Shown here: piece by piece, positions 7,544-38,296 of the stretch | Layout: each line of letters starts with the position of its first letter | Numbering within the stretch: the stretch's first letter is position 1 | The notes under the pieces: model-generated | What the model was told of the DNA's origin: nothing | Database searches by the model: none | Seen by the model: the letters and a program-made list of their open reading frames with translations, nothing else | Translations under genes and position numbers: made by a program | Origin: Runella defluvii | GTDB taxonomy: Bacteria > Bacteroidota > Bacteroidia > Cytophagales > Spirosomataceae | Reading direction: 5' to 3' | DNA length: 64,000 nucleotides | Assembly: GCF_014195535.1 (NCBI RefSeq) | Contig: NZ_JACIBY010000024.1 | Location: 1 to 64,000 of the forward strand

Positions 7544-9211
7544 ATGGTAAAGAAAAGCCAATTCAAAATTTTTATTTTTTTATATTTTTTGGTGGGCTGT
7601 ACAAGTTCTAATAAGAGTGTCGTTAGCCCTCAGTTGGAAGCACTTACTGCCTCTTTCACCGTATCGCAAGCTAACCCTAAGCTCAATGAAACTATCACAT
7701 TCAAAGATGAAAGCAAAGGGAACCCTACCAGTTGGACATGGGACTTTGGGGATGGCACAACTTCCACTCAACAAAATCCCACGAAGTCCTACGCAAAGTT
7801 AGGAGCTTATACTGTAAAGCTGACGGTCTCTAAAACAGGTGTAGCGAGTCAATCTGCTACAAAAAATATCACAGTAACTGCATCTGTATTAACACTGTCA
7901 TTGAATACCCAAAATGTAGTGGCTACTGCCAATACTGCCAGTATTACACTAACTGCCAACAATTCTTGGACAGCCAGTAGCAATAGTACATGGCTAAAAG
8001 TCAGCCCTATTAGTGGCAATGCTGGTACAAATACAGTTATTAATTTTACTGTTGATGCCAATACAACTACCAACTCTCGCACGGGTATTGTAACATTTGC
8101 TTCTGGTGGACTTACGCAAACTTATACGCTTACGCAGGCAGGTGCAAGTATAGTAAGCCAAGGAGGGACGTTATATATAGCTACTGACCAAGGTGACTAT
8201 GCTAGTAATGCCGCTTTATTTGCTATTGATATTAATACAGGTAGCATAAAATGGCGATTTAAAACTGATACACCTTCGGAAACTTTTGCATCACCAACTG
8301 CTTCAAATGGTATTGTATATTTTGGTAATAATGATAGAATATTTGCCCTTGATGCTCAAAATGGGAATATAAAATGGAAGTTTTCGACGGGTGGAGAAAT
8401 CATATCTTCACCTCTAGTTATTGATAATGTTATTTATTTTGGAAACACCGACCGTAAATTTTATGCATTAGACGCAAACACAGGTACAAAGAAATGGGAA
8501 TTTGTAACAGGACGACCTATAACATCTTCTCCAACCGTATCTAATGGTATGGTTTATTTTGGGTGTGGGTCTCTTTACGCCTTAGATGTAAATACAGGAT
8601 TAAAAAAATGGGAGTTTTTATCTGATGATTTAAGTTTTCTCGATTCTTCTCCAACGGTAGTCAATGGCACATTATATATAGGTGCAAGTGGAATTAGAGG
8701 TGAAGATGGAAAAATATTTGCCATTGATGGATTGAAAGGAATCAAAAAATGGGATTTGGCAATAGGCTCTATAAGTTCCTCTCCAACCGTTGTAAACAAC
8801 ATTATTTATGTGGGAAGTCAAAATAATAAAGTATATGCTATTGATGCTGTAACAGGGCTCAAAAGATGGGAGTTTTTAACCAATGGTTCAATTGGGTCGT
8901 CTTCTCCCTCAGTAAAAAATAATCTTGTCTATATAGGTAGTCTTAGAGACAAGTTCTATGCCTTAGATGCTTCAAATGGTTCAAAAAAATGGGAAGTTCC
9001 ATCACCTACCTTTATTAATCAGTCTTCGCCTACGATTGCTGAGGGAGTCGTTTATATCCATCATGGTGTTTGGATATCAGCTTTTGATGCTTTAACTGGT
9101 GTAAAAAAATGGACTGGCAATTTAGGCTCATCCAATGATTCCAGCCCATGCGTAGTAACTTCTGACGGTAAGGTGTATCATTCAGGCATTAGTGGTTATC
9201 CTGATAACTAA
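7544..9211 (+). CDS. PKD-BACON-PQQ beta-propeller lipoprotein
   Basis: 555 aa from the ATG at 7544; the longer frame from GTG 7490 would bury the lipoprotein signal. The signal ends in lipobox L-V-G-C. Domains: PKD at about 36-105 (F-K-D-E-S, W-D-F-G-D-G-T-T-S-T, Y-T-V-K-L-T-V); BACON at about 113-203 (W-T-A-S-S-N-S-T-W-L, S-G-N-A-G-T-N); then seven or so PQQ-like propeller blades at 206-553, each with a Y/F-A-L-D-A-x-x-G-x-K-K-W-x-F core. PQQ-like blades of this kind act as outer-surface binding or scaffold propellers (as in BamB); no PQQ dehydrogenase residues were identified. Probably a surface lipoprotein that binds polysaccharide or protein. The PKD and BACON units are near copies of those in the next gene, pointing to domain exchange. 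Confidence 0.78.
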   Translation: MVKKSQFKIFIFLYFLVGCTSSNKSVVSPQLEALTASFTVSQANPKLNETITFKDESKGNPTSWTWDFGDGTTSTQQNPTKSYAKLGAYTVKLTVSKTGVASQSATKNITVTASVLTLSLNTQNVVATANTASITLTANNSWTASSNSTWLKVSPISGNAGTNTVINFTVDANTTTNSRTGIVTFASGGLTQTYTLTQAGASIVSQGGTLYIATDQGDYASNAALFAIDINTGSIKWRFKTDTPSETFASPTASNGIVYFGNNDRIFALDAQNGNIKWKFSTGGEIISSPLVIDNVIYFGNTDRKFYALDANTGTKKWEFVTGRPITSSPTVSNGMVYFGCGSLYALDVNTGLKKWEFLSDDLSFLDSSPTVVNGTLYIGASGIRGEDGKIFAIDGLKGIKKWDLAIGSISSSPTVVNNIIYVGSQNNKVYAIDAVTGLKRWEFLTNGSIGSSSPSVKNNLVYIGSLRDKFYALDASNGSKKWEVPSPTFINQSSPTIAEGVVYIHHGVWISAFDALTGVKKWTGNLGSSNDSSPCVVTSDGKVYHSGISGYPDN

Positions 9212-9236
9212 AATTGATTTTAAAACTCGTTTTCGT

Positions 9237-12200
9237 ATGAAACCATTATCTCGTTTAGTTTTATTTATGATTGTTTTTGTTTCTTGGCAATGGGCTTGGG
9301 GGCAAAAAACAACAATATATACTGTATCTTCATCACCTTATAATAATTACCCAAGTCTTGCTTTTAATAGCGATTGGAAAGTCGGACCAGTTTTCGATGT
9401 TACAGGAGTTCAATATTTTATAGGGGTAAAATCTCTTGATTTTGGTTATGTTGATTACAGCATAATCAAAGTTGATAAAGGCAAGCTAACGTCAATTGAT
9501 ATTCCTTATTTGATGTCGAGTAAAGACAGTCAATCCCCACGAAGTGTAGATTTTAGCTTTTTTACGATTGATAAAAAAAATAATATCTGGATAAAACATA
9601 ATGCAGAAGGGGCTATTTATCGTATGGATAGTCAAGGTGTCTGGTACGCCTATTATTATAATTCAGACCATTTAAATCGTAGGTCAAAAACATTACCTAA
9701 TCTATTATCAGTAACAATGGATATACCTCTGTTATTTGCCAATGATAACAATAGTAAACTGTGGGTCTTCGATAATAGTGGTATCATTCACAATTTTGAT
9801 GGAAGCAAATGGAGTAAATCTATTGATTTAACCAAAGTGAGTTCTGAGTTTTTGAATGGGGTTGTGAATGTGCCTTCTGATGGTAAATTATATAAATTCC
9901 TGTCGATGGATGTTAAGGGCAATGACCAAATCTGGATGACGGCAAGTGGTACAGGTGGTCAATTTGCTCTGAAAGTTGAAGGTGCAAAAATGCTTGGATA
10001 TGCTTTGAATAGCAAAATAAACAATTCTACGGGTAAAATTTATATTGATAAATTGGGTGTGGTTTGGGTATTTGATGGTTATCAGATTGCAACTTTTGAT
10101 TCCAAAAAATGGTACACTTACCCTGTTAAAAGTAGTTATGATGGTAATGATTTTATTTTAGATTACGAAAGTAACAGAAAATGGTATTTAGATTTTAATA
10201 CCTATGATATTCAAACATTTAAAGACTATACCTTTACAGGCAACAGTATCACATTTTCAAATAATGCTTTAAGTACCTTTAAGCTTGAGAGCAATTATTT
10301 AACAAACATAACGACCAATGCTCTTGATGAAAGTTTATGGGGATTTTGGTCTAATAAATTAGTAAAAATAGAACCCCCTACTGTAAATGCTGTAACATTA
10401 TCAGCAAACTACTCATACACCCCCACTGCCCCACAACTTAACCAAAGCATTACGTTTAAAGACGAAAGTACAGGCAGCCCTACGAGTTGGGCTTGGGATT
10501 TTGGGGATGGTACTACCTCAACCCTACAAAACCCCACTAAAACGTACAACAAAGCAGGAAACTATACCGTCAAACTCACCATCAACAAACAAGGGGCTAC
10601 GGCAGCGAGTACCACCAAGAGCATCACAATAACTGCCGAGGCTGCAACGCTTGCCCTATCAACTATCACCCACAATGCCCCGGTGGCAGGTGAGCAAGGT
10701 GGCCTGAATATCTCTACCAACACCAACTGGACTGCCAACAGCAATGCTGCTTGGCTCAAAGTAAGCCCTACCAGCGGTAATGCAGGCACAAACATTGCGG
10801 TAAACTACACCGTCGAAGCCAATACGGCAACGGCAGCCCGTACAGGTATCATCACTTTTACGGCAGGAACACAAACGGCTACTTTCACCGTCACGCAAGC
10901 AGGAGTTGCACCCTCATTGGTGGTAAGCCCTACGGCTCCCACTACCATCGCAGCGGTGGGTAGTACGGTGGCGTTATCGGTTGTGTCAAACCTTTCTTGG
11001 TCAGTTGCCAAATCTACCAATTCAGATTGGCTTACGGTTTCACCTGCTTCGGGTATGGGCAATCAGAACGTATCTGTTACCGCCTCTGCCAATGCTACCA
11101 CGGCGGAGCGTTCGGCCACGCTTACGTTTTCGGTGGCGGGCGTAGCCAATGTCGTCGTAACTATTCGGCAGGCAGGCGTAAACGCCAGTTTGTCGCTTTC
11201 GGAAACAAGTATAAAAGTAAATGCTTCTTCGATTAGTATTGGGATTCTCAAACTTACTACAAACACGGCATGGACAGCGAGCAGCGATGCTGAATGGCTC
11301 ACCATAGGCCCCACTTCGGGCAATGCAGGGACGAATATAGAGTTGACATGGTCGGTGGCTATCAATACTTCAGTGAATAGCCGTACTGGAAAAATTACGG
11401 TAATGGCAGGAACACAAACGGCTACTTTCACCGTCACCCAAGCGGGCATAATTCCAGAATTGAGTCTTTCGGCAGAGAGTAAGACCGTTGCGGCCACGGG
11501 CGAAGCGGGGCAGTTGGGTATTACCTCAAACGTACCTTGGTCGGCTACTTCCAATGCTACTTGGCTCACGTTTAGTCCTTCCAGTGGTGGAGCAGGCGTT
11601 ATCAACAATTTTAGGTACGGTATAGATGCCAATCCCAATACGACGACACGGACAGGAGTCATTACTTTTTCAGCCAGTGGATTGATCAAAACATTTACCG
11701 TTACCCAAGAGGGTACTAAACCCACACCTCCCCAAGCCCCCACCCAATTGACCGTTACAGCTACATCGGAGTATGAACTACGCATTAGCTGGAAAGACAA
11801 TGCCACTAACGAGACTTCGTATGAACTCGAAAGAGCCGATGGACTTTTACTTGGCCCTACCAATTCCGATTTTAAGAAAATAGCCACGTTACCTGCCAAC
11901 ACTACCACCGTTTTAGACCAAAAACTAACCTCAAAATCCCAGTATTGTTACCGAGTGCGAGCAGTCAATGCAGTGGGAGCATCTGATTTTATGGAAGCAG
12001 TATGCGGCACTACCAATGCCCCCCCTGCGGGTATTACTTTGATAACACACGGATTTAGCCCCGCAGGTCCCGAAGCACCTGAAAAACTGAGGGACGATTT
12101 CACAGCGAGTTTTGGGGTATTTGCCAATAGCATTAGGGAAAAAGCAGGTGCAGGCGCAACGGTCTATATCAATGATGTAAATACAAGAAAATGGAAAAGG

Positions 12201-14006
12201 TGGGAGGCTGTCAGTAATAATGGAAATGGTGACCCAACCAAGGAAATTATTTTGTTTTACAACTGGGCAGATGCCTCCAACACAGAACTTTATGCCTTAC
12301 TCAACAACCTGCTGTATATGTCTAACTCAGGTTATTTAGAAGGTTCGGCTGATATTTTATTCGCTATGTTGGCTGACGCTCAAATACCTACTTTGCCTAA
12401 CAATTTGCTTACCTCTGGTAAACCTTTACACTTTATTGGCCACAGTCGAGGCACAATTTTATTATTACAACTCATGCACCGCATGGCGAAGTGGTTTCCC
12501 AATGTAAAAATTGACCACTACACTGCCCTCGACCCACACCCTGCCACCAACATGGGCGATGTAGTACGAAAACAGCGAAATACTTATGCTTCGCTTCCAC
12601 TCGTAACGGGCTACGCCGATGGTTGTACGAACACCATTGGCTGCTCGTCGGCATCGGTAGGTACAGCCGAAGAAATCAAAATCAGAATACCCGAAAATGT
12701 CCAAAAAGCCGAGGTCTATTATCGAAAAGATGGTGATTATGAAGACTCCGACTCAGCCTTAGAAAACTTAGCAAGCCGCTTTGGGGATCCCGAAATATAT
12801 GCCAATGCTGTAATTTTTATCACCAACTATTTTCTTCCACCTTGGTTACAAATTCAGTACCAAAATAGGTTTAGACGATTATTAGTGGCATTCGATGGAG
12901 TCCCCTCTATCGGAGGAGTCAATTACCAATTAGACAATACCAAAATATCTGAGGGCAAAACAGGCGGTTTTGGTGGAGCACATTCAGGAGTTGTGAGTTG
13001 GTATTTTGGTACCATTGACACAAGATTAACAGGTTCTGATGGAAAGCCTATTTCTTATGATGGAGAGCCTCTTTATCTCAACCAATGGTATGGAACAAAC
13101 GGAGCGCTGTTGGCCTCAAAGCCTGCTCGCGAGAAATCAGGCTACTATTTCAGTCGCATTGGCGGGGGCTATGCGCAGTTGGCCGACGCCACCAACAAAA
13201 TGAATATCTACGAAATGGACAACCAATTGCAAACTCGCCCTCGCCTCAACAACACTGATGGTGGTATGAAACTGGGGATTCAGAATGGAAACTTTGAATA
13301 TAACAATGACAGCGGCTGGCGGTTTGGTGGAGGAAATAGTGCATCTAACAATCAAGCTAAAAACGGACAGGTAATCGTTTCAGGGTCAGGTTTAAGTATC
13401 AAACCCGAGATTAATATTACTCATTCTTTGATGTACTACCCAGCCAACTTTAATTATGTAATGGCTCACATCAAATTTGATACTAAACAGACTGCTACAA
13501 AAACCTTTTCTGTCCAATTCCTCAATCGAGATTTTGCGGCTGTAGGGCAGCCGCTTGAAGTCGTACCTACCAAAAACGACACCAAGGCCTATATCAAAAT
13601 TCCAACATCATTAAAAGGAAAATCAGGCTCTTTCACCATCAAAGGAACGGGCATATTGGTTGAAAAAGTGGAATTGTCAGACAGGACAGGCAGTCAAGAC
13701 GTAATCATAGAATCACTGGCTCAACCCGAAACCCTTCAGACAGTCGAGGCTCTTTATGAAATATTCCCCAACCCCAACAACGGGCGATTTAGCCTCACGA
13801 GTCAAGACGCACAAATGCCTGCCATAGCCGTTGTGGTCGTTGATGTAATAGGTAATGTACTATTCAAAGCCACTGACAATCAGCTTTCAGTATTTAATGC
13901 CCAGCAAAAATTAGATATTGCTTTGCCGGGTGGCTTTACGGGGTCTTATACCCTACGAGTTGAAACCGCCCAAGGCGTATCGTTCAAACGTATCATAAAA
14001 GAATAA
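9237..14006 (+). CDS. T9SS-secreted multidomain protein with lipase-like alpha/beta hydrolase
   Basis: 1589 aa from ATG 9237 (signal peptide ending A-W-G-Q); an upstream in-frame ATG at 9192 overlaps the previous gene. Domains: propeller-like N-terminus at about 25-385; PKD at 392-468 (W-D-F-G-D-G-T-T); about four BACON domains at 470-828 (repeated W-T-A-x-S-x-A-x-W-L and F-T-V-T-Q-A-G); fibronectin type III at 832-925; alpha/beta hydrolase from about 932, with L-I-T-H-G-F near its start, F-I-G-H-S-R-G nucleophile elbow (Ser about 1070) and A-L-D-P-H-P-A, where an acid residue is expected; and a C-terminal T9SS sorting domain at about 1502-1589 (F-P-N-P-N-N-G-R-F to K-R-I-I-K-E). It should be exported by T9SS and attached or released. 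Lipase/esterase activity is inferred; the third triad residue is not assigned. Confidence 0.8.
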   Translation: MKPLSRLVLFMIVFVSWQWAWGQKTTIYTVSSSPYNNYPSLAFNSDWKVGPVFDVTGVQYFIGVKSLDFGYVDYSIIKVDKGKLTSIDIPYLMSSKDSQSPRSVDFSFFTIDKKNNIWIKHNAEGAIYRMDSQGVWYAYYYNSDHLNRRSKTLPNLLSVTMDIPLLFANDNNSKLWVFDNSGIIHNFDGSKWSKSIDLTKVSSEFLNGVVNVPSDGKLYKFLSMDVKGNDQIWMTASGTGGQFALKVEGAKMLGYALNSKINNSTGKIYIDKLGVVWVFDGYQIATFDSKKWYTYPVKSSYDGNDFILDYESNRKWYLDFNTYDIQTFKDYTFTGNSITFSNNALSTFKLESNYLTNITTNALDESLWGFWSNKLVKIEPPTVNAVTLSANYSYTPTAPQLNQSITFKDESTGSPTSWAWDFGDGTTSTLQNPTKTYNKAGNYTVKLTINKQGATAASTTKSITITAEAATLALSTITHNAPVAGEQGGLNISTNTNWTANSNAAWLKVSPTSGNAGTNIAVNYTVEANTATAARTGIITFTAGTQTATFTVTQAGVAPSLVVSPTAPTTIAAVGSTVALSVVSNLSWSVAKSTNSDWLTVSPASGMGNQNVSVTASANATTAERSATLTFSVAGVANVVVTIRQAGVNASLSLSETSIKVNASSISIGILKLTTNTAWTASSDAEWLTIGPTSGNAGTNIELTWSVAINTSVNSRTGKITVMAGTQTATFTVTQAGIIPELSLSAESKTVAATGEAGQLGITSNVPWSATSNATWLTFSPSSGGAGVINNFRYGIDANPNTTTRTGVITFSASGLIKTFTVTQEGTKPTPPQAPTQLTVTATSEYELRISWKDNATNETSYELERADGLLLGPTNSDFKKIATLPANTTTVLDQKLTSKSQYCYRVRAVNAVGASDFMEAVCGTTNAPPAGITLITHGFSPAGPEAPEKLRDDFTASFGVFANSIREKAGAGATVYINDVNTRKWKRWEAVSNNGNGDPTKEIILFYNWADASNTELYALLNNLLYMSNSGYLEGSADILFAMLADAQIPTLPNNLLTSGKPLHFIGHSRGTILLLQLMHRMAKWFPNVKIDHYTALDPHPATNMGDVVRKQRNTYASLPLVTGYADGCTNTIGCSSASVGTAEEIKIRIPENVQKAEVYYRKDGDYEDSDSALENLASRFGDPEIYANAVIFITNYFLPPWLQIQYQNRFRRLLVAFDGVPSIGGVNYQLDNTKISEGKTGGFGGAHSGVVSWYFGTIDTRLTGSDGKPISYDGEPLYLNQWYGTNGALLASKPAREKSGYYFSRIGGGYAQLADATNKMNIYEMDNQLQTRPRLNNTDGGMKLGIQNGNFEYNNDSGWRFGGGNSASNNQAKNGQVIVSGSGLSIKPEINITHSLMYYPANFNYVMAHIKFDTKQTATKTFSVQFLNRDFAAVGQPLEVVPTKNDTKAYIKIPTSLKGKSGSFTIKGTGILVEKVELSDRTGSQDVIIESLAQPETLQTVEALYEIFPNPNNGRFSLTSQDAQMPAIAVVVVDVIGNVLFKATDNQLSVFNAQQKLDIALPGGFTGSYTLRVETAQGVSFKRIIKE

Positions 14007-32558: not shown

Positions 32559-33596
32559 ATGAACATGAACCCTATGAAAAAATACCTGTTTCTGCTTTTC
32601 TCTTTTTTTTACTCTCACTTTCTTCTTGCACAAGCCCCAAGTATTATTTGGGATAAAACTATTGGGGGGAATGGGCAAGATTTAAGACCAACCATGATAA
32701 CAACAAGTGATGGAGGTTTTGTAATTGTAGGGCAATCACCTTCAGATATTTCAGGAGATAAATCGGAAGCGAACAAAGGTGGAAATGATTATTGGGTGGT
32801 TAAGCTCAACAGCAACGGACAAAAAGTTTGGGATAAAACCATTGGTGGAAATGGTTTGGAGGAGACACCCACTATAACCGCTACAAGTGATGGAGGGCTT
32901 TTTATTGCAGGAACATCATCATCAAACATATCAGGAGATAAATCGGAAGCGAACAAAGGTATGAGGGATTATTGGGTGGTTAAGCTCAACAGCAACGGAC
33001 AAAAAGTTTGGGATAAAACTATTGGAGGAAATTATAGCGACATAGTAAGTGCAATCATTGCTACAAATGATGGAGGGTTTGCTGTTGCGGGAAGTTCAAA
33101 CTCCAGCATGGGGTATGACAAAAGTGAAAGTAGTCCTGCGAATGAGTATGCTTATTGGATTGTAAGATTTAATGGAAGTGGGCAAAAGTTGTGGGATAAA
33201 ACATTTGCGGGAAGTAGATATGATATTCATAATGTGGATGTAGCCAAAAGCATAATTACAACTTCTGATGGAGGGTTTGTAATTGCTGGGACATCATCAT
33301 CAGACATATCAGGTGATAAATCAGAGGCAAGAAAGGGTTCTGATGATTATTGGGTAATAAAACTAAATAGTAATGGACAAAAAGTCTGGGATAAAACTAT
33401 TGGGGGAAGTGGAGCAGATGATGTTACCTCAATCATTACTACAACTGATGGAGGGTTTGTAGTTGTTGGAACATCGTCATCAAGCATATCGGGTGATAAA
33501 ACAGAAGCAAGCAAGGGATATCAAGATTATTGGATTGTTAAACTTAATAGTAACGGACAAAAAGTCTGGGATAAAACCATTGGGGGAAGTAAGTAA
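32559..33596 (+). CDS. N-terminal fragment of a split giant repeat protein
   Basis: 345 codons up to a stop supplied by the inserted element. A signal peptide (from the third Met, 32574: M-K-K-Y-L-F-L-L-F ... L-L-A-Q) is followed by five repeats of about 55-65 residues with W-D-K-T-I-G-G, T-S-D-G-G-F-V-I-A-G and D-Y-W-V-V-K-L-N-S-N-G-Q. These repeats look like blades of a beta-propeller. The sequence breaks inside the next blade at D-K-T-I-G-G-S, and the missing half of that blade is found at 33830 onward. Alone, this product would be exported but truncated. Confidence 0.75.
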   Translation: MNMNPMKKYLFLLFSFFYSHFLLAQAPSIIWDKTIGGNGQDLRPTMITTSDGGFVIVGQSPSDISGDKSEANKGGNDYWVVKLNSNGQKVWDKTIGGNGLEETPTITATSDGGLFIAGTSSSNISGDKSEANKGMRDYWVVKLNSNGQKVWDKTIGGNYSDIVSAIIATNDGGFAVAGSSNSSMGYDKSESSPANEYAYWIVRFNGSGQKLWDKTFAGSRYDIHNVDVAKSIITTSDGGFVIAGTSSSDISGDKSEARKGSDDYWVIKLNSNGQKVWDKTIGGSGADDVTSIITTTDGGFVVVGTSSSSISGDKTEASKGYQDYWIVKLNSNGQKVWDKTIGGSK

Positions 33597-33829
33597 TTGT
33601 GCAAAATTAAAATGGATATTATCAACGATATGTAACTCCTTTAACCCCACGCCTTTAGGCTGGGGGGGGGAAAGAGCACAATGTAGGGCTTTAGCCCTGA
33701 TTTTTACGCCTTTTTGTCAAAAAATCAGGGCTAAAGCCCACGTGAAGCTCTCTCATTGTATCCCCAGCCTAAAGGCCTGGGGTTAAAATAGAATTAGCTT
33801 TATACTCGCTTAATTTTGCTTAGATACTT
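33591..33829. mobile_element. Palindromic MITE-like insertion that splits a gene
   Basis: Removing 33591-33829 joins ...GGS to NYD... in frame and gives a blade of exactly the length of its neighbours (seven residues between G-G and T-I-T-A-T-S-D-G-G), so the boundaries are supported by the coding sequence. The ends are imperfect inverted repeats: aagtaattgtgcaaaattaa at the left against ttaattttgcttagatactt at the right (about 15 of 20 bases pair). A repeated AA at the junction allows a 2-bp target duplication. Inside are two outer hairpins with GCCTTTAGGC or its complement (33645-33665, 33762-33783) and a 20-bp perfect inverted repeat (33686-33705 with 33720-33739). It has no gene, so it must be moved in trans, if at all. 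Confidence 0.8.
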
Positions 33830-33838
33830 AATTATGAT

Positions 33839-36800
33839 ATGGCCCCCACCATAACAGCTACAAGTGATGGGGGTTTTGTTATTGCAGGAACATCATCATC
33901 AGGCATATCAGGTGATAAATCAGATGCAGGTAAAGGTGGTAATGACGATTGGATAATAAAACTAAACAGCAATGGACAAAAAGCATGGGATAAAACCATT
34001 GGTACAAGTAATTATGATTTTGCATGTTCAGTTGTAGCTACATCCGATGGTGGCTTTGTTATTTCGGGAGAATCTGGCTCAGGAATATCAGGTGATAAAA
34101 CAGAAGCTAATAAAGGTTATGAAGATTATTGGATAGTGAAATTAGGAGGCAACAGTTATACCTTCCCAACCCCCACTTTAGCCGTTACAAAATGCCCCAG
34201 CAAAGATTTTTGCTTACAATTGAACTTAACAACTACTGTTCCAAGCGATGGGCGGCGGCAAAAGTTTTTGATTTCTACAACGCCTACTTTTGATGATGCC
34301 ACTACCTGGGGGTATAACTCAACGGGCGATTTAGCAGTAATATTTCAGAATGGCGATTCTTTCAACAAACCCTTTCAAAATAATGTCACTTATTACATTC
34401 GGGCAAGGGTAGAGAATATTGTTAATCAAACATTTTCGGATTGGGCTTCTACTACGTTTACGTTCACTTCATCCCCAGCTACGCTTAAACTTTCAGCTAC
34501 TTCCTATTCTGCTACGGCTGATGCTTTTTTTCAAAACTTAGGGCTTGAAGCATCAGCCGCTTGGACAGCCCAATCCGATGCTTCGTGGCTAACTATCTCA
34601 CCTACAAGCGGTACGCTTGGGTTTTTCAGTCAGATACGCTATGGGGGTGATGCTAACACTACCACTACTGCCCGTACGGGTACAATTACCTTTACATCGG
34701 GTACTACTACGGCTAAATTGGTGGTTACGCAGGCGGGAGGAGTAGCCAAAATAATTATCACCAATCTGCCCGAAGCCATCAATCAAGCTACCTACACAGT
34801 GCCACGGGAGGCTACGGTGCATCATTACTTTTTGGCAAAAAATAGTAGTACCAATTTGCCTGTACAGAATGTGATCGTAAATTATAAAATAGGCACTCAA
34901 ACGACTATTAGGAATTCTCTGCCCAGCGATGCCGATGGTTTAATAGACCTCAACGTGAAAGTGGGTGGAACAGACTCAACAAGTTCAGCAGATGATTGGC
35001 TGGGTGTGGGAAGCGGTACCATTCAGTACGTTGGACTTACAAATGCTACTTTATCTGGGCAAAATGACTTTGCTACCAATCCGTTCACAATCAATGTGAT
35101 AGATAAAGCTTCGCCGCTTGATAAAGAAATGGGCATAGGTGTTGGTTTTCGAGTAGGTGCTCCATTGTTTGAATTACCCTACGATTATAAAAAGAAAATA
35201 GGGAGTTATACACTAAGTTTTGGTTCGAGTATATCTGGAAAACTTGGTATGAGCACAGGGCGGCAAATTAGAATCAAACCCGTTTCTGGTTCAGCCTGGG
35301 ATATTTATTTTAGTGGTAACCTTGGTGTAGGGTTAGACTTAGCTGGTGAAGCAGGATTTACTTTTGGTGATAAAAATATCAAAGCAGGAGCAAACACTTC
35401 TCTTGATACGGAGTTGGAAGGTGGAACTCGTTTTGAAAAAGGCTATCGAATAGACCTAAATAACCGTACAGACGTACTAAAATTGGGTTATTTGGTTTAC
35501 TCATTACATGTAGCAAGTCCTACTGCCAAAGCTATTTCTCTCATATTTGAGAATCTTTATAACAAATATTCAACAACCCCACTCACCAATAACAGCCTTA
35601 CCACAAGACGGGAGTTTTCGTATGGTGCAAACTATAATTTCGATTTAGATACAGAACTAAAATTCAAAGTGCGAGCCAAGGGCTTTAACTTACCAGGCTA
35701 TGGTAATATTCCAGAGATAGAGCCTCAATACAAGGTTGAATCAAAAGGTGGCTTTTTAGATACCTATATTTTAGAATCAGAAAAGGGAGTAGGAAATCAT
35801 ACCATCAACTCTATTGATGTTGATTTTAGTGCTGTTTCATCTATTCAAAGTATGGTGAACATTACCAAAGGCAACCGGAAAAACAATCCTTCCGCCAAAT
35901 CGCAGCCTTTTGAACTGTACAATACTTCGATTGATAACAACCTAACAGTGGGTCGTACTGTTGGCTTCGATGAATTGCCAAAGAGTTCATTTTTTTCATT
36001 GGGTACTCGCTCTACGGAACTAACCTTAGACCCCACAAATTCCACCAAGAAATACAACGTTATTATCAATAACCAGTACAAATATGGCCCACAAGTAACT
36101 TCAAGAATATTTGCCAACTATTATAGTACACCTGTATTGCAAAATAATGCACTGGCAAAATTTATTACGATGAATACGAATAGTTTGGTTTGGAGTGCAT
36201 TTACAGCAGCCGATAATACAAGGAGCGTTTACAAACAAGCATTGGATTTACATGATTGGGTTACCACCACTTCTCCAAATAATACACCCTTTAATGAAAT
36301 TGACTTAACCAGCACAAGAGACATTTCATTGATTGAAAAGCAAGAAGCCTCAACTGATTTGTCAAAATACAAAATCAATATTTTTAAGATTAAACTCGAT
36401 TTAGCAGGAGTAAATTTAAGTTCATGGAGTACCCATAAGCATAATTTATCAAAAGCGGTGTATGTCAAATCACTAAATCGGGCATTACTTACGCTTGACT
36501 ATCCCAACATCACAAATAATTTGGAAATACCCACCACTCATCCATTACTGATGATAGAAAATGCGATTAATTCGGTTTTAGGAGGAATTGATGATAATAC
36601 AATTGCAGAATCAGATGATTTTATGGAAAGAACGTCTGCCTTTGTAGATGAACTGGTAGATATCTTATGGACCAATTTATGGAAGCCTCGTAAAAATTCG
36701 GCGGGTGTAACCATTTATGACCCAAAACAGAGCCTTTCTACACAATCAGCAAGAATCGCAGCTAATACTCCCAGTGTATTTACGTTCACTATTCCAAAAA

Positions 36801-38296
36801 CTGCATTTTATGCAAATACCAAGTTAGATTTCGACTACTATTATCCAGCCAACGAGATTGAAGCCATCACTACAACAGATACATTGAGAATCATAAGTGA
36901 TGTCTTTACAATTTCGGCAACCCTCAATAATACGAAATTGCTCAATGCCCCAAGAGCAAACTTTAACATTCAAACGGTTTTTAGCCAAACAGATTTAGAA
37001 TTGGCATCATTACCAACCAATTTAGTGCCTATAGTGGTATTTTTACCACACGGCTCTACCGTTTGGGAGAAAATAGGTACTCTGAATACAACTTTTTCTT
37101 TTAACCGCTTAGGCACTTATGCGTTGGCAGTAAAGATTACTAATGACGATACACCACCTACCATTAATGTCACATTTCCAAGTACATTTACTGCACCCAA
37201 TTACATTGATGTTACTTTAAACGACACTCAATCTGGGATTGATTGGGCAAAAGTAACTTTTGCAGCTAATGATTTACCCGTACCCTACACACGTCAAGGA
37301 CTTACAAATACGTTTAGGGTTAATATCAGTGACTTACCGACAAATGCCAACGGAATTTTCAATTTCTACATTTTAGCTATTGATTTGGCTGGTAATCCCA
37401 AGACCTATCAAAATGTATATCCATGTGATTATCAAATGGTCATTTCTGGATTAGAGTTAGACCCAGACAATCCAATTTTGAAGAAAGCACTGGCAACAAT
37501 TCAAGCAAACTCTAAAACTCCACAAAATAAAGACGTTTTATTCCGCGCAGGAAAAAGCATTGAACTTACACCTGGATTTGAAACAAAAGGAAAAACCTTT
37601 ATGGCTCAGATTGGAGGCTGTGCAACATCTACCCTCCCTACAAACGGTTTAATAGCCTACTACCCATTTACAGGCAATACCAACGATGCGAGTGGTAATA
37701 ATAGGAATGCGACTAACAACGGGGCAACCCTTACCACCGATAGAAAGGGCACCGCAAATGCGGCCTATGATTTCAACGGCAGCAATGCTTGGCTCAATAC
37801 GCCTTTGGTTCAGTCCAACCTATCAGGCTATACCATTTCTGCTTGGGTAAAGCCCAATTTTACCAACAGTCAAGAGTACGTTATTCTTCAAAATCGAGGC
37901 ACAACGCCAGGCAGCGGGCGGAGCTTAACGTTACATTACCAATACAGTACCAATCGGTGGGGCTTTGCCATTGATGGCGATGCGCTATACACGGGTGTAC
38001 AAGCTCCATCAACCAATACTACCGAGTGGATACACGTGGTAGGTGTTTGGTCGTCGGGAGGCGCGAGCACATTCAATGCGAATCAGTTTAAAGTATATGT
38101 CAACGGCGTATTATTGTCGGCAGTTGCTATCAATGGCAACAGTGCAACTATTCCCAATACGGGTTCGGGTACGGTTGCCATAGGTCGGCACGAGGCTTGG
38201 GGGAGTTATTTCAAAGGCAAATTAGATGACATCCGTATCTACAACCGTGCCCTTACTGACGCGGAAGTACAGAGTATTTATACCATAGAACGATAA
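33839..38296 (+). CDS. C-terminal fragment of the split giant repeat protein (BACON, LamG)
   Basis: 1485 codons without signal peptide; continues the blade cut at 33590 (coding frame really resumes at 33830). Two further propeller blades (to about 34150) are followed by an FN3-like part, a BACON domain at about 34470-34740 (A-W-T-A-Q-S-D-A-S-W-L), a large middle region of unknown fold rich in beta-sequence with glycine-rich F-G-S-S-I-S-G-K-L-G stretches, a coathanger-like module (F-R-A-G-K-S-I-E-L-T-P-G-F), and a C-terminal LamG/concanavalin-like domain at about 37640-38290 (L-I-A-Y-Y-P-F-T-G-N-T-N-D ... L-D-D-I-R-I-Y-N-R-A-L-T). Intact, the protein would be about 1830 aa and surface-exposed. 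As it stands the fragment cannot be exported, unless an alternative start or excision restores it. Confidence 0.75.
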   Translation: MAPTITATSDGGFVIAGTSSSGISGDKSDAGKGGNDDWIIKLNSNGQKAWDKTIGTSNYDFACSVVATSDGGFVISGESGSGISGDKTEANKGYEDYWIVKLGGNSYTFPTPTLAVTKCPSKDFCLQLNLTTTVPSDGRRQKFLISTTPTFDDATTWGYNSTGDLAVIFQNGDSFNKPFQNNVTYYIRARVENIVNQTFSDWASTTFTFTSSPATLKLSATSYSATADAFFQNLGLEASAAWTAQSDASWLTISPTSGTLGFFSQIRYGGDANTTTTARTGTITFTSGTTTAKLVVTQAGGVAKIIITNLPEAINQATYTVPREATVHHYFLAKNSSTNLPVQNVIVNYKIGTQTTIRNSLPSDADGLIDLNVKVGGTDSTSSADDWLGVGSGTIQYVGLTNATLSGQNDFATNPFTINVIDKASPLDKEMGIGVGFRVGAPLFELPYDYKKKIGSYTLSFGSSISGKLGMSTGRQIRIKPVSGSAWDIYFSGNLGVGLDLAGEAGFTFGDKNIKAGANTSLDTELEGGTRFEKGYRIDLNNRTDVLKLGYLVYSLHVASPTAKAISLIFENLYNKYSTTPLTNNSLTTRREFSYGANYNFDLDTELKFKVRAKGFNLPGYGNIPEIEPQYKVESKGGFLDTYILESEKGVGNHTINSIDVDFSAVSSIQSMVNITKGNRKNNPSAKSQPFELYNTSIDNNLTVGRTVGFDELPKSSFFSLGTRSTELTLDPTNSTKKYNVIINNQYKYGPQVTSRIFANYYSTPVLQNNALAKFITMNTNSLVWSAFTAADNTRSVYKQALDLHDWVTTTSPNNTPFNEIDLTSTRDISLIEKQEASTDLSKYKINIFKIKLDLAGVNLSSWSTHKHNLSKAVYVKSLNRALLTLDYPNITNNLEIPTTHPLLMIENAINSVLGGIDDNTIAESDDFMERTSAFVDELVDILWTNLWKPRKNSAGVTIYDPKQSLSTQSARIAANTPSVFTFTIPKTAFYANTKLDFDYYYPANEIEAITTTDTLRIISDVFTISATLNNTKLLNAPRANFNIQTVFSQTDLELASLPTNLVPIVVFLPHGSTVWEKIGTLNTTFSFNRLGTYALAVKITNDDTPPTINVTFPSTFTAPNYIDVTLNDTQSGIDWAKVTFAANDLPVPYTRQGLTNTFRVNISDLPTNANGIFNFYILAIDLAGNPKTYQNVYPCDYQMVISGLELDPDNPILKKALATIQANSKTPQNKDVLFRAGKSIELTPGFETKGKTFMAQIGGCATSTLPTNGLIAYYPFTGNTNDASGNNRNATNNGATLTTDRKGTANAAYDFNGSNAWLNTPLVQSNLSGYTISAWVKPNFTNSQEYVILQNRGTTPGSGRSLTLHYQYSTNRWGFAIDGDALYTGVQAPSTNTTEWIHVVGVWSSGGASTFNANQFKVYVNGVLLSAVAINGNSATIPNTGSGTVAIGRHEAWGSYFKGKLDDIRIYNRALTDAEVQSIYTIER

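Follow-up and report, generated by a model that had tools for sequence, protein, structure and literature searches.

The window analyzed here, a stretch of 64,000 nucleotides of Runella defluvii from contig 24 of an 8-Mb genome in 50 contigs, contains a gene for a large propeller protein that appears to have been inactivated by a mobile element. The reading favored here, with a probability of about 0.87, is that a non-autonomous MITE of the IS630/Tc1 type with a REP/BIME-like core inserted at a TA dinucleotide within this gene. An IS630-family transposase acting in trans would have recognized the ends of the element, each of ~19 bp, a transposition step attributed to it from its family, and insertion into a TA within the sixth of seven propeller repeats would have duplicated that TA; the gene now ends after 345 codons. 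The interior is a double hairpin of the REP/BIME-like kind that flanks RAYT-type (Y1) genes in the genus. From IS630-type ends around a RAYT-type interior, we infer that two mobile systems have contributed sequences to the element.

Terminal repeats and dispersed copies

The element comprises 237 bp (33592-33828) between two TA dinucleotides that are read directly in the sequence, the order being TA (33590-33591), AGTAATTG...GATACT, and TA (33829-33830). That the two are the left and right copies of one target is suggested by the sequence and by the join of the reading frames, and for the left copy also by membership in a TA-duplicating family; the extent of the mobile unit is indicated by its copies in the same genome and in relatives. 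The terminal inverted repeats, AGTAATTGTGCAAAATTAA at the left (33592-33610, plus strand) and AGTATCTAAGCAAAATTAA at the right (33810-33828, minus strand), both match IS630-family ends. They are followed inward by arm A (ATGGATATTATCAACGATATG..., 33611-33644, plus strand) and, read inward from the right end, by arm B (GCGAGTATAAAGCTAATTC..., 33783-33809, minus strand). Between the arms, the interior is laid out as H-spacer-K-loop-K-spacer-H, in which H is CCCCAnGCCTTTAGGCTGGGG and K is GGGCTTTAGCCCTGATTTTT. The first outer hairpin unit H (CCCCACGCCTTTAGGCTGGGG, 33645-33665, plus strand) is followed by spacer D, the inner 20-bp arm K (33686-33705, plus strand), a central loop (33706-33719) whose orientation varies among copies, the second, inverted K (33720-33739, minus strand), spacer C, and the second, inverted H (33762-33782, minus strand). 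The core is a hairpin pair of the GCCTTTAGGC and GGGCTTTAGCCC types.

Both outer hairpins are confirmed, and the inner inverted repeat of 20 bp has no mismatch, in agreement with the initial annotation of a palindromic, gene-free, non-autonomous element; its description is refined in that the outer hairpins and inner repeat form one nested palindrome. As DNA, the element folds at -58.9 kcal/mol, as compared with a mean of -25.1 for 200 dinucleotide shuffles (z -9.2), none of which folds as well. It contains no supported gene; a frame of 107 aa with a TTG start (33463-33786) overlaps it. A search of Rfam with positions 33000-34400 returned five matches with E up to 1, to a viral cis-element and to microRNAs of three families; all five fall under the gathering scores and are regarded as chance matches on a hairpin. 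The Bacteroidota -7 promoter box is TAnnTTTG, and the core of the right end read outward, TAATTTTG (33811-33818), fits this box ~20 bp before an ATG at 33839; by eye, no -33 box accompanies it, and a promoter role for the ends is conceivable.

Similarity of these ends to those of IS630-family elements is observed directly. Within the genus, matches to the Pfam family DDE_3, to which the IS630 transposase of the same genome belongs, number 52 in 10 of 13 genomes; these and one fetched stretch provided 29 IS630 loci that were checked for TA-anchored inverted ends, and none is both intact and a close match to the ends in the window. A family-wide search, in which 23 of 81 genomes matched, found further insertion sequences with such ends. 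Over 19 positions, agreement with the window is 14-17 for a relic on a plasmid of R. slithyformis (L158) and 16, 14-15, and 13-15 for elements of other genera of the family (L256, L279, and L262, respectively), so that terminal repeats are shared at 13-17 of 19 positions with four insertion sequences. The IS630 element of the same genome (L103), whose ends have diverged, agrees at 12-15 of 19, and three further elements (L257, L106, and L114) agree at 4-8 of 19 at the offsets used, of which the one for L257 was probably four bases off. Background scores, taken from 9,488 TA-anchored 19-mers of the window, reach at most 13 for the left end and 14 for the right, so that the lowest of the related scores (12-13) are not convincing alone. 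The R. slithyformis copy is broken. Its ends are AGCAGTTAAGCAGAATTAA and AGTAAATGAGCAAAATTAA, and one of them runs on into ATTGGATATTATCC, which resembles arm A of the window element; in DNA, an IS630 relic in the congener G002 is 100% identical to the R. slithyformis DSM 19594 plasmid NC_015705.1. The element at L103 (1431-2491; ~883.2-884.2 kb of G000:C1) has two overlapping frames with a run of A between them and itself splits another gene, whose flanking frames are by eye continuous over one TA.

A search for further copies, as the initial annotation had proposed, found them both in the same genome and in relatives. In the former, 20 matches collapse to 11 places, and the only full-length copy is that of the window. 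Among the matches listed, 13 of 39 genomes have a match, 11 of them within the genus (this genome included), and the longest, full-length copies in the three congeners G005, G008, and G010, share both ends of the element. The best-scoring relative is 84% identical (G005) and the best-scoring copy in the same genome is partial and 79% identical; matches of higher identity among those listed are short pieces only. The plasmid collection contained no copy. Fourteen composite copies were read end to end in four genomes (one in R. defluvii, five in G005, seven in G008, and one in G010), and because four G005/G008 pairs are shared insertions, these represent 10 places. Ten of the 14 have a TA at each end; the remaining four lack it at one end or at both, and for one of these the right end was not located. 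Allowing at most one mismatch, the terminal-end pattern has 89 matches in 13 genomes, as compared with six for the reversed control. The element is short, carries no transposase gene, is dispersed over 10 places in 14 copies that have their ends in common, and lies at a duplicated TA, as judged from the reading frame and from 10 of the 14 copies. It resembles an IS630-type MITE, with a core like that of REP/BIME repeats.

An exact filled/empty pair was read for a ~100-bp sister element that adjoins one composite copy, G005 having ACT-TA-element-TA-TTAG where G008 has ACT-TA-TTAG. For the composite elements themselves, an empty site was sought for two copies and no precise pair was found. At the site of G008:C29, the same insertion is present in G005, and three further genomes (G009, G011, and G012) match on the left up to a few bases from the insertion point, their right flank not having been recovered; at G008:C7, G005 is without elements, the intergenic gap being too diverged for a precise junction to be read. 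The G008:C7 region (L191, 761-1227) holds one composite and two ~104-bp sister elements head to tail, none of which is present in the orthologous gap of G005 (G005:C41, L287). Three places read in G007 (L160, L161, and L162) carry a ~100-bp element whose terminal repeats are the same and whose short interior is different.

The hairpin core and its rearrangement

The hairpin unit H (at most one mismatch) has 82 matches over 13 genomes, as compared with none for its control, and ranges from 0 to 21 per genome, with none in six of the 13 and 11 in the 8-Mb genome of R. defluvii. Hairpins of similar kind, found with loose probes, flank Y1 genes in four of 30 loci scanned out of 60 Y1 matches (L136, L148, L155, and L156, in G002, G005, G009, and G012); by the strict H pattern, G009 and G012 have none and G002 has one. 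A fifth case, G003:C3, was read in L164. The interior has one feature of RAYT-associated REP/BIME repeats, the same kind of palindrome beside a Y1 gene. Two others are absent: the copy number is low, REP-type repeats usually exceeding 100 copies per genome according to the available text of PMC2817692, and there is no constant GTAG-type tag of the sort described there for known RAYT repeats. In the window copy, K has GTAG next to it; other copies, for example G010 and G008.C17, lack it at that position.

Several Y1 loci present arrangements of their own. In G003, G005, and G002 (L164, L165, and L166), a RAYT-type gene lies within an array of similar hairpins, and by eye the surrounding genes look like serS and aspartate kinase. 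The RAYT array of R. slithyformis (L155) contains, among other parts, about eight tandem units of ~59 bp. In R. defluvii, one Y1 gene (L151, G000:C1 at 925.7 kb) adjoins a different repeat array of the GGGGCGTTAGCCC type.

The order of segments in the core varies. Of eight window-type copies, four have the order A-D-C (the window, G005.C12, G008.C17, and G010, in which spacer C is weak) and four the order A-C-D (G005.C72, G008.C29, G008.C25, and G008.C7), and the loop of G008.C7 is reversed relative to that of G008.C29. G005.C12 and G008.C25 are the same insertion, as their flanks align through. After an identical left end, arm B follows in G005.C12 and arm A in G008.C25; the two copies also have their loops in opposite orientation and wholly different right arms. 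This change of state is directly observed, and because two species differ in arms and loop at one shared insertion, the core has changed in place. The left half of G008.C25 is identical to those of G008.C29 and G008.C7, the terminal repeat excepted; such identity among sites of G008 makes copying between sites (gene conversion) as likely an explanation as inversion. The nested palindrome would allow segments of the interior to be inverted, or overwritten by other copies, after insertion, with recombination or gene conversion as the probable cause. A shared insertion with differing arms and loop offers a direct system for studying the inversion or overwriting of bacterial palindromic DNA.

A more far-reaching version of the main reading is tentative and less likely than not. 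Here, an IS630-type MITE would carry a RAYT-type BIME core, two unrelated transposases (DDE and Y1) could each act on part of it, and the nested palindromes would enable the core to invert at three levels and to be copied anew from site to site. If true, such a two-system design would yield a combinatorial family of elements from one design. It is quite improbable that RAYT (Y1) transposition of the REP-like hairpins moves the whole element, with the IS630-like ends incidental. The inner hairpins do resemble the arrays flanking Y1 genes, and hairpin cassettes without IS630-type ends exist at no fewer than 16 loci, most with both H units and some at places common to several species. Nevertheless, the boundary common to the 14 composite copies is the IS630-type end, mostly with its TA, rather than a hairpin, and the GTAG tag of known RAYT repeats, as the available text of PMC2817692 presents it, is not constant. 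Further, none of the three Y1 loci scanned in R. defluvii has hairpins on both sides: one has a single H (L128), another none (L141), and L151 has two K-type matches on one side. The cassettes without IS630 ends, which count against the favored reading, could be decayed composites.

The divided propeller gene

The split of the gene is read directly from its frames. The 5' part (32559-33591, plus strand) encodes an N-terminus resembling an export signal, the first five propeller repeats, and the beginning of the sixth; the 3' part (33831-38296, plus strand) encodes the rest of repeat 6, repeat 7, a BACON domain, and a laminin-G-like C-terminus. The N-terminal frame (32559-33596) has 345 aa, its stop codon falling within the element, and the C-terminal frame (33839-38296) has 1,485 aa and an ATG of its own. 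When the flanks are joined by script over one TA with the element left out, which is equivalent to the join of 33590 to 33830 in the initial annotation, a single open frame of 1,832 aa results, close to the 1830 aa claimed there. This frame has seven WDKT repeats at spacings of 60, 60, 61, 65, 60, and 60 residues. The restored repeat measures exactly 60 residues, and over 12 bases at the junction it has the same sequence as the next repeat at the corresponding place. The N-terminal piece alone (L048) gives six motif matches, the sixth cut short.

Assignment of the N-terminal piece as a beta-propeller is supported by its predicted structure (mean pLDDT 82), whose five best PDB matches are CylK entries (best E 4.5e-16). 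In Pfam, the downstream piece matches BACON and laminin-G-like domains, and the upstream piece with its propeller repeats matches no family above threshold, a sub-threshold ANAPC4 match being the only one. By eye, the N-terminus reads like a signal peptide and the protein looks exported; the claim that the element disrupts a large surface protein agrees with this, as an exported-looking propeller protein is split and its frame stops after 345 codons. A second large exported-looking protein of the window (1,604 aa, 9192-14006) combines four BACON domains with PKD domains and also shows a sub-threshold match to a secretion tail.

No orthologue of the split gene was found in 38 other genomes, the best downstream match being 32% identical over residues 304-1399 (G012); in a wider contig collection, from which the same or very near genomes were possibly excluded, none of 39 pattern stretches was confirmed. 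With no orthologue found, a direct empty allele is lacking, and no element copy among the matches listed lies at an orthologous junction. Four open frames of relatives (L052, L055, L057, and L058) have exactly seven repeats each. Fewer were counted in L054 (three), L056 (four, with one double gap), and L061 (five), where the fetched stretch may be cut or the motif may miss a repeat. In L052 (G006:C114), the seven-repeat propeller follows a region that by eye reads like a Ser/Thr protein kinase. Nor were relatives with the same spacer and stop codons, which would have suggested an old intergenic sequence, found among the 38 genomes, the best downstream match being that in G012.

The suggestion that the insertion is recent holds in part. 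The split gene is otherwise open at full length, and with 1,485 downstream codons open an ancient break is improbable. The search did not, however, reveal a full-length copy of near identity, and the best copies elsewhere, at 84% and 79%, give no indication of a burst under way.

The further proposal, that the element acts as an on/off switch whose precise excision gives part of the population the propeller protein back, is very improbable. The frame is open once the element and one TA are left out, and long palindromes can be lost through replication slippage. Against this, only a 2-bp repeat flanks the element, and the single assembly shows the occupied allele alone, with neither an empty allele nor an excision product. 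The purified transposase of ISY100, as described in the available text of PMC2170065, cleaves the 3' strands exactly at the ends and the 5' strands two bases further in, the TA being duplicated on insertion. Healing after such cuts would usually leave extra bases, so that excision would rarely restore the gene, and by this analogy a regulated switch is unlikely. That the segment is an old spacer between two separate genes is scarcely credible, for although each piece is a long open frame, the second with an ATG of its own, the seven-repeat architecture appears only on joining, the 60-residue register is kept, the junction bases are identical, and dispersed copies carry the same ends. Insertion of the MITE, with plain gene inactivation as its effect here, is most likely.

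Comparison with known systems

Several families of short repeats share features with the window element. Like RUP of Streptococcus pneumoniae, which shares its ends with IS630-Spn1, and Correia/NEMIS of Neisseria, it is short and transposase-free, with inverted ends, a TA target, and strong base pairing, as far as these families are described in the available text of PMC2229807 and PMC2817692. Unlike them, it has as its interior a RAYT-type hairpin pair, and the orientation of its segments varies at more than one nested level. The likeness to RUP and Correia is judged on these features. Inversion of Correia elements was reportedly described by Elbeyioglu in 2017.

Like REP/BIME repeats, the core is composed of inverted hairpin pairs of the type flanking Y1 transposase genes; unlike them, it has few copies (11 H hairpins in 8 Mb), has no constant GTAG, and is enclosed by IS630-type ends. 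BrickBuilt of Porphyromonas gingivalis is likewise a MITE of the Bacteroidota that houses a repeat family, but in the available text of PMC4596501 its interior is a minisatellite and not a REP-like hairpin pair. ISY100, an IS630/Tc1 element of Synechocystis, shares TA duplication and terminal inverted repeats (24 bp, as compared with the ~19 scored here; available text of PMC2170065), but is autonomous, whereas the window element has no transposase. No description of a MITE carrying RAYT-type hairpins appeared among the results listed in searches of the open-licence literature.

The insertion is well supported and the class of the element, an IS630/Tc1-type MITE, is a known one; its composite core is what is unusual. 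It provides a clean natural example, from a genus of the Bacteroidota, of a gene disrupted by a MITE and points to the likely transposase family. It also shows that the core of a MITE can be made up of an apparent second mobile repeat and can alter in place.
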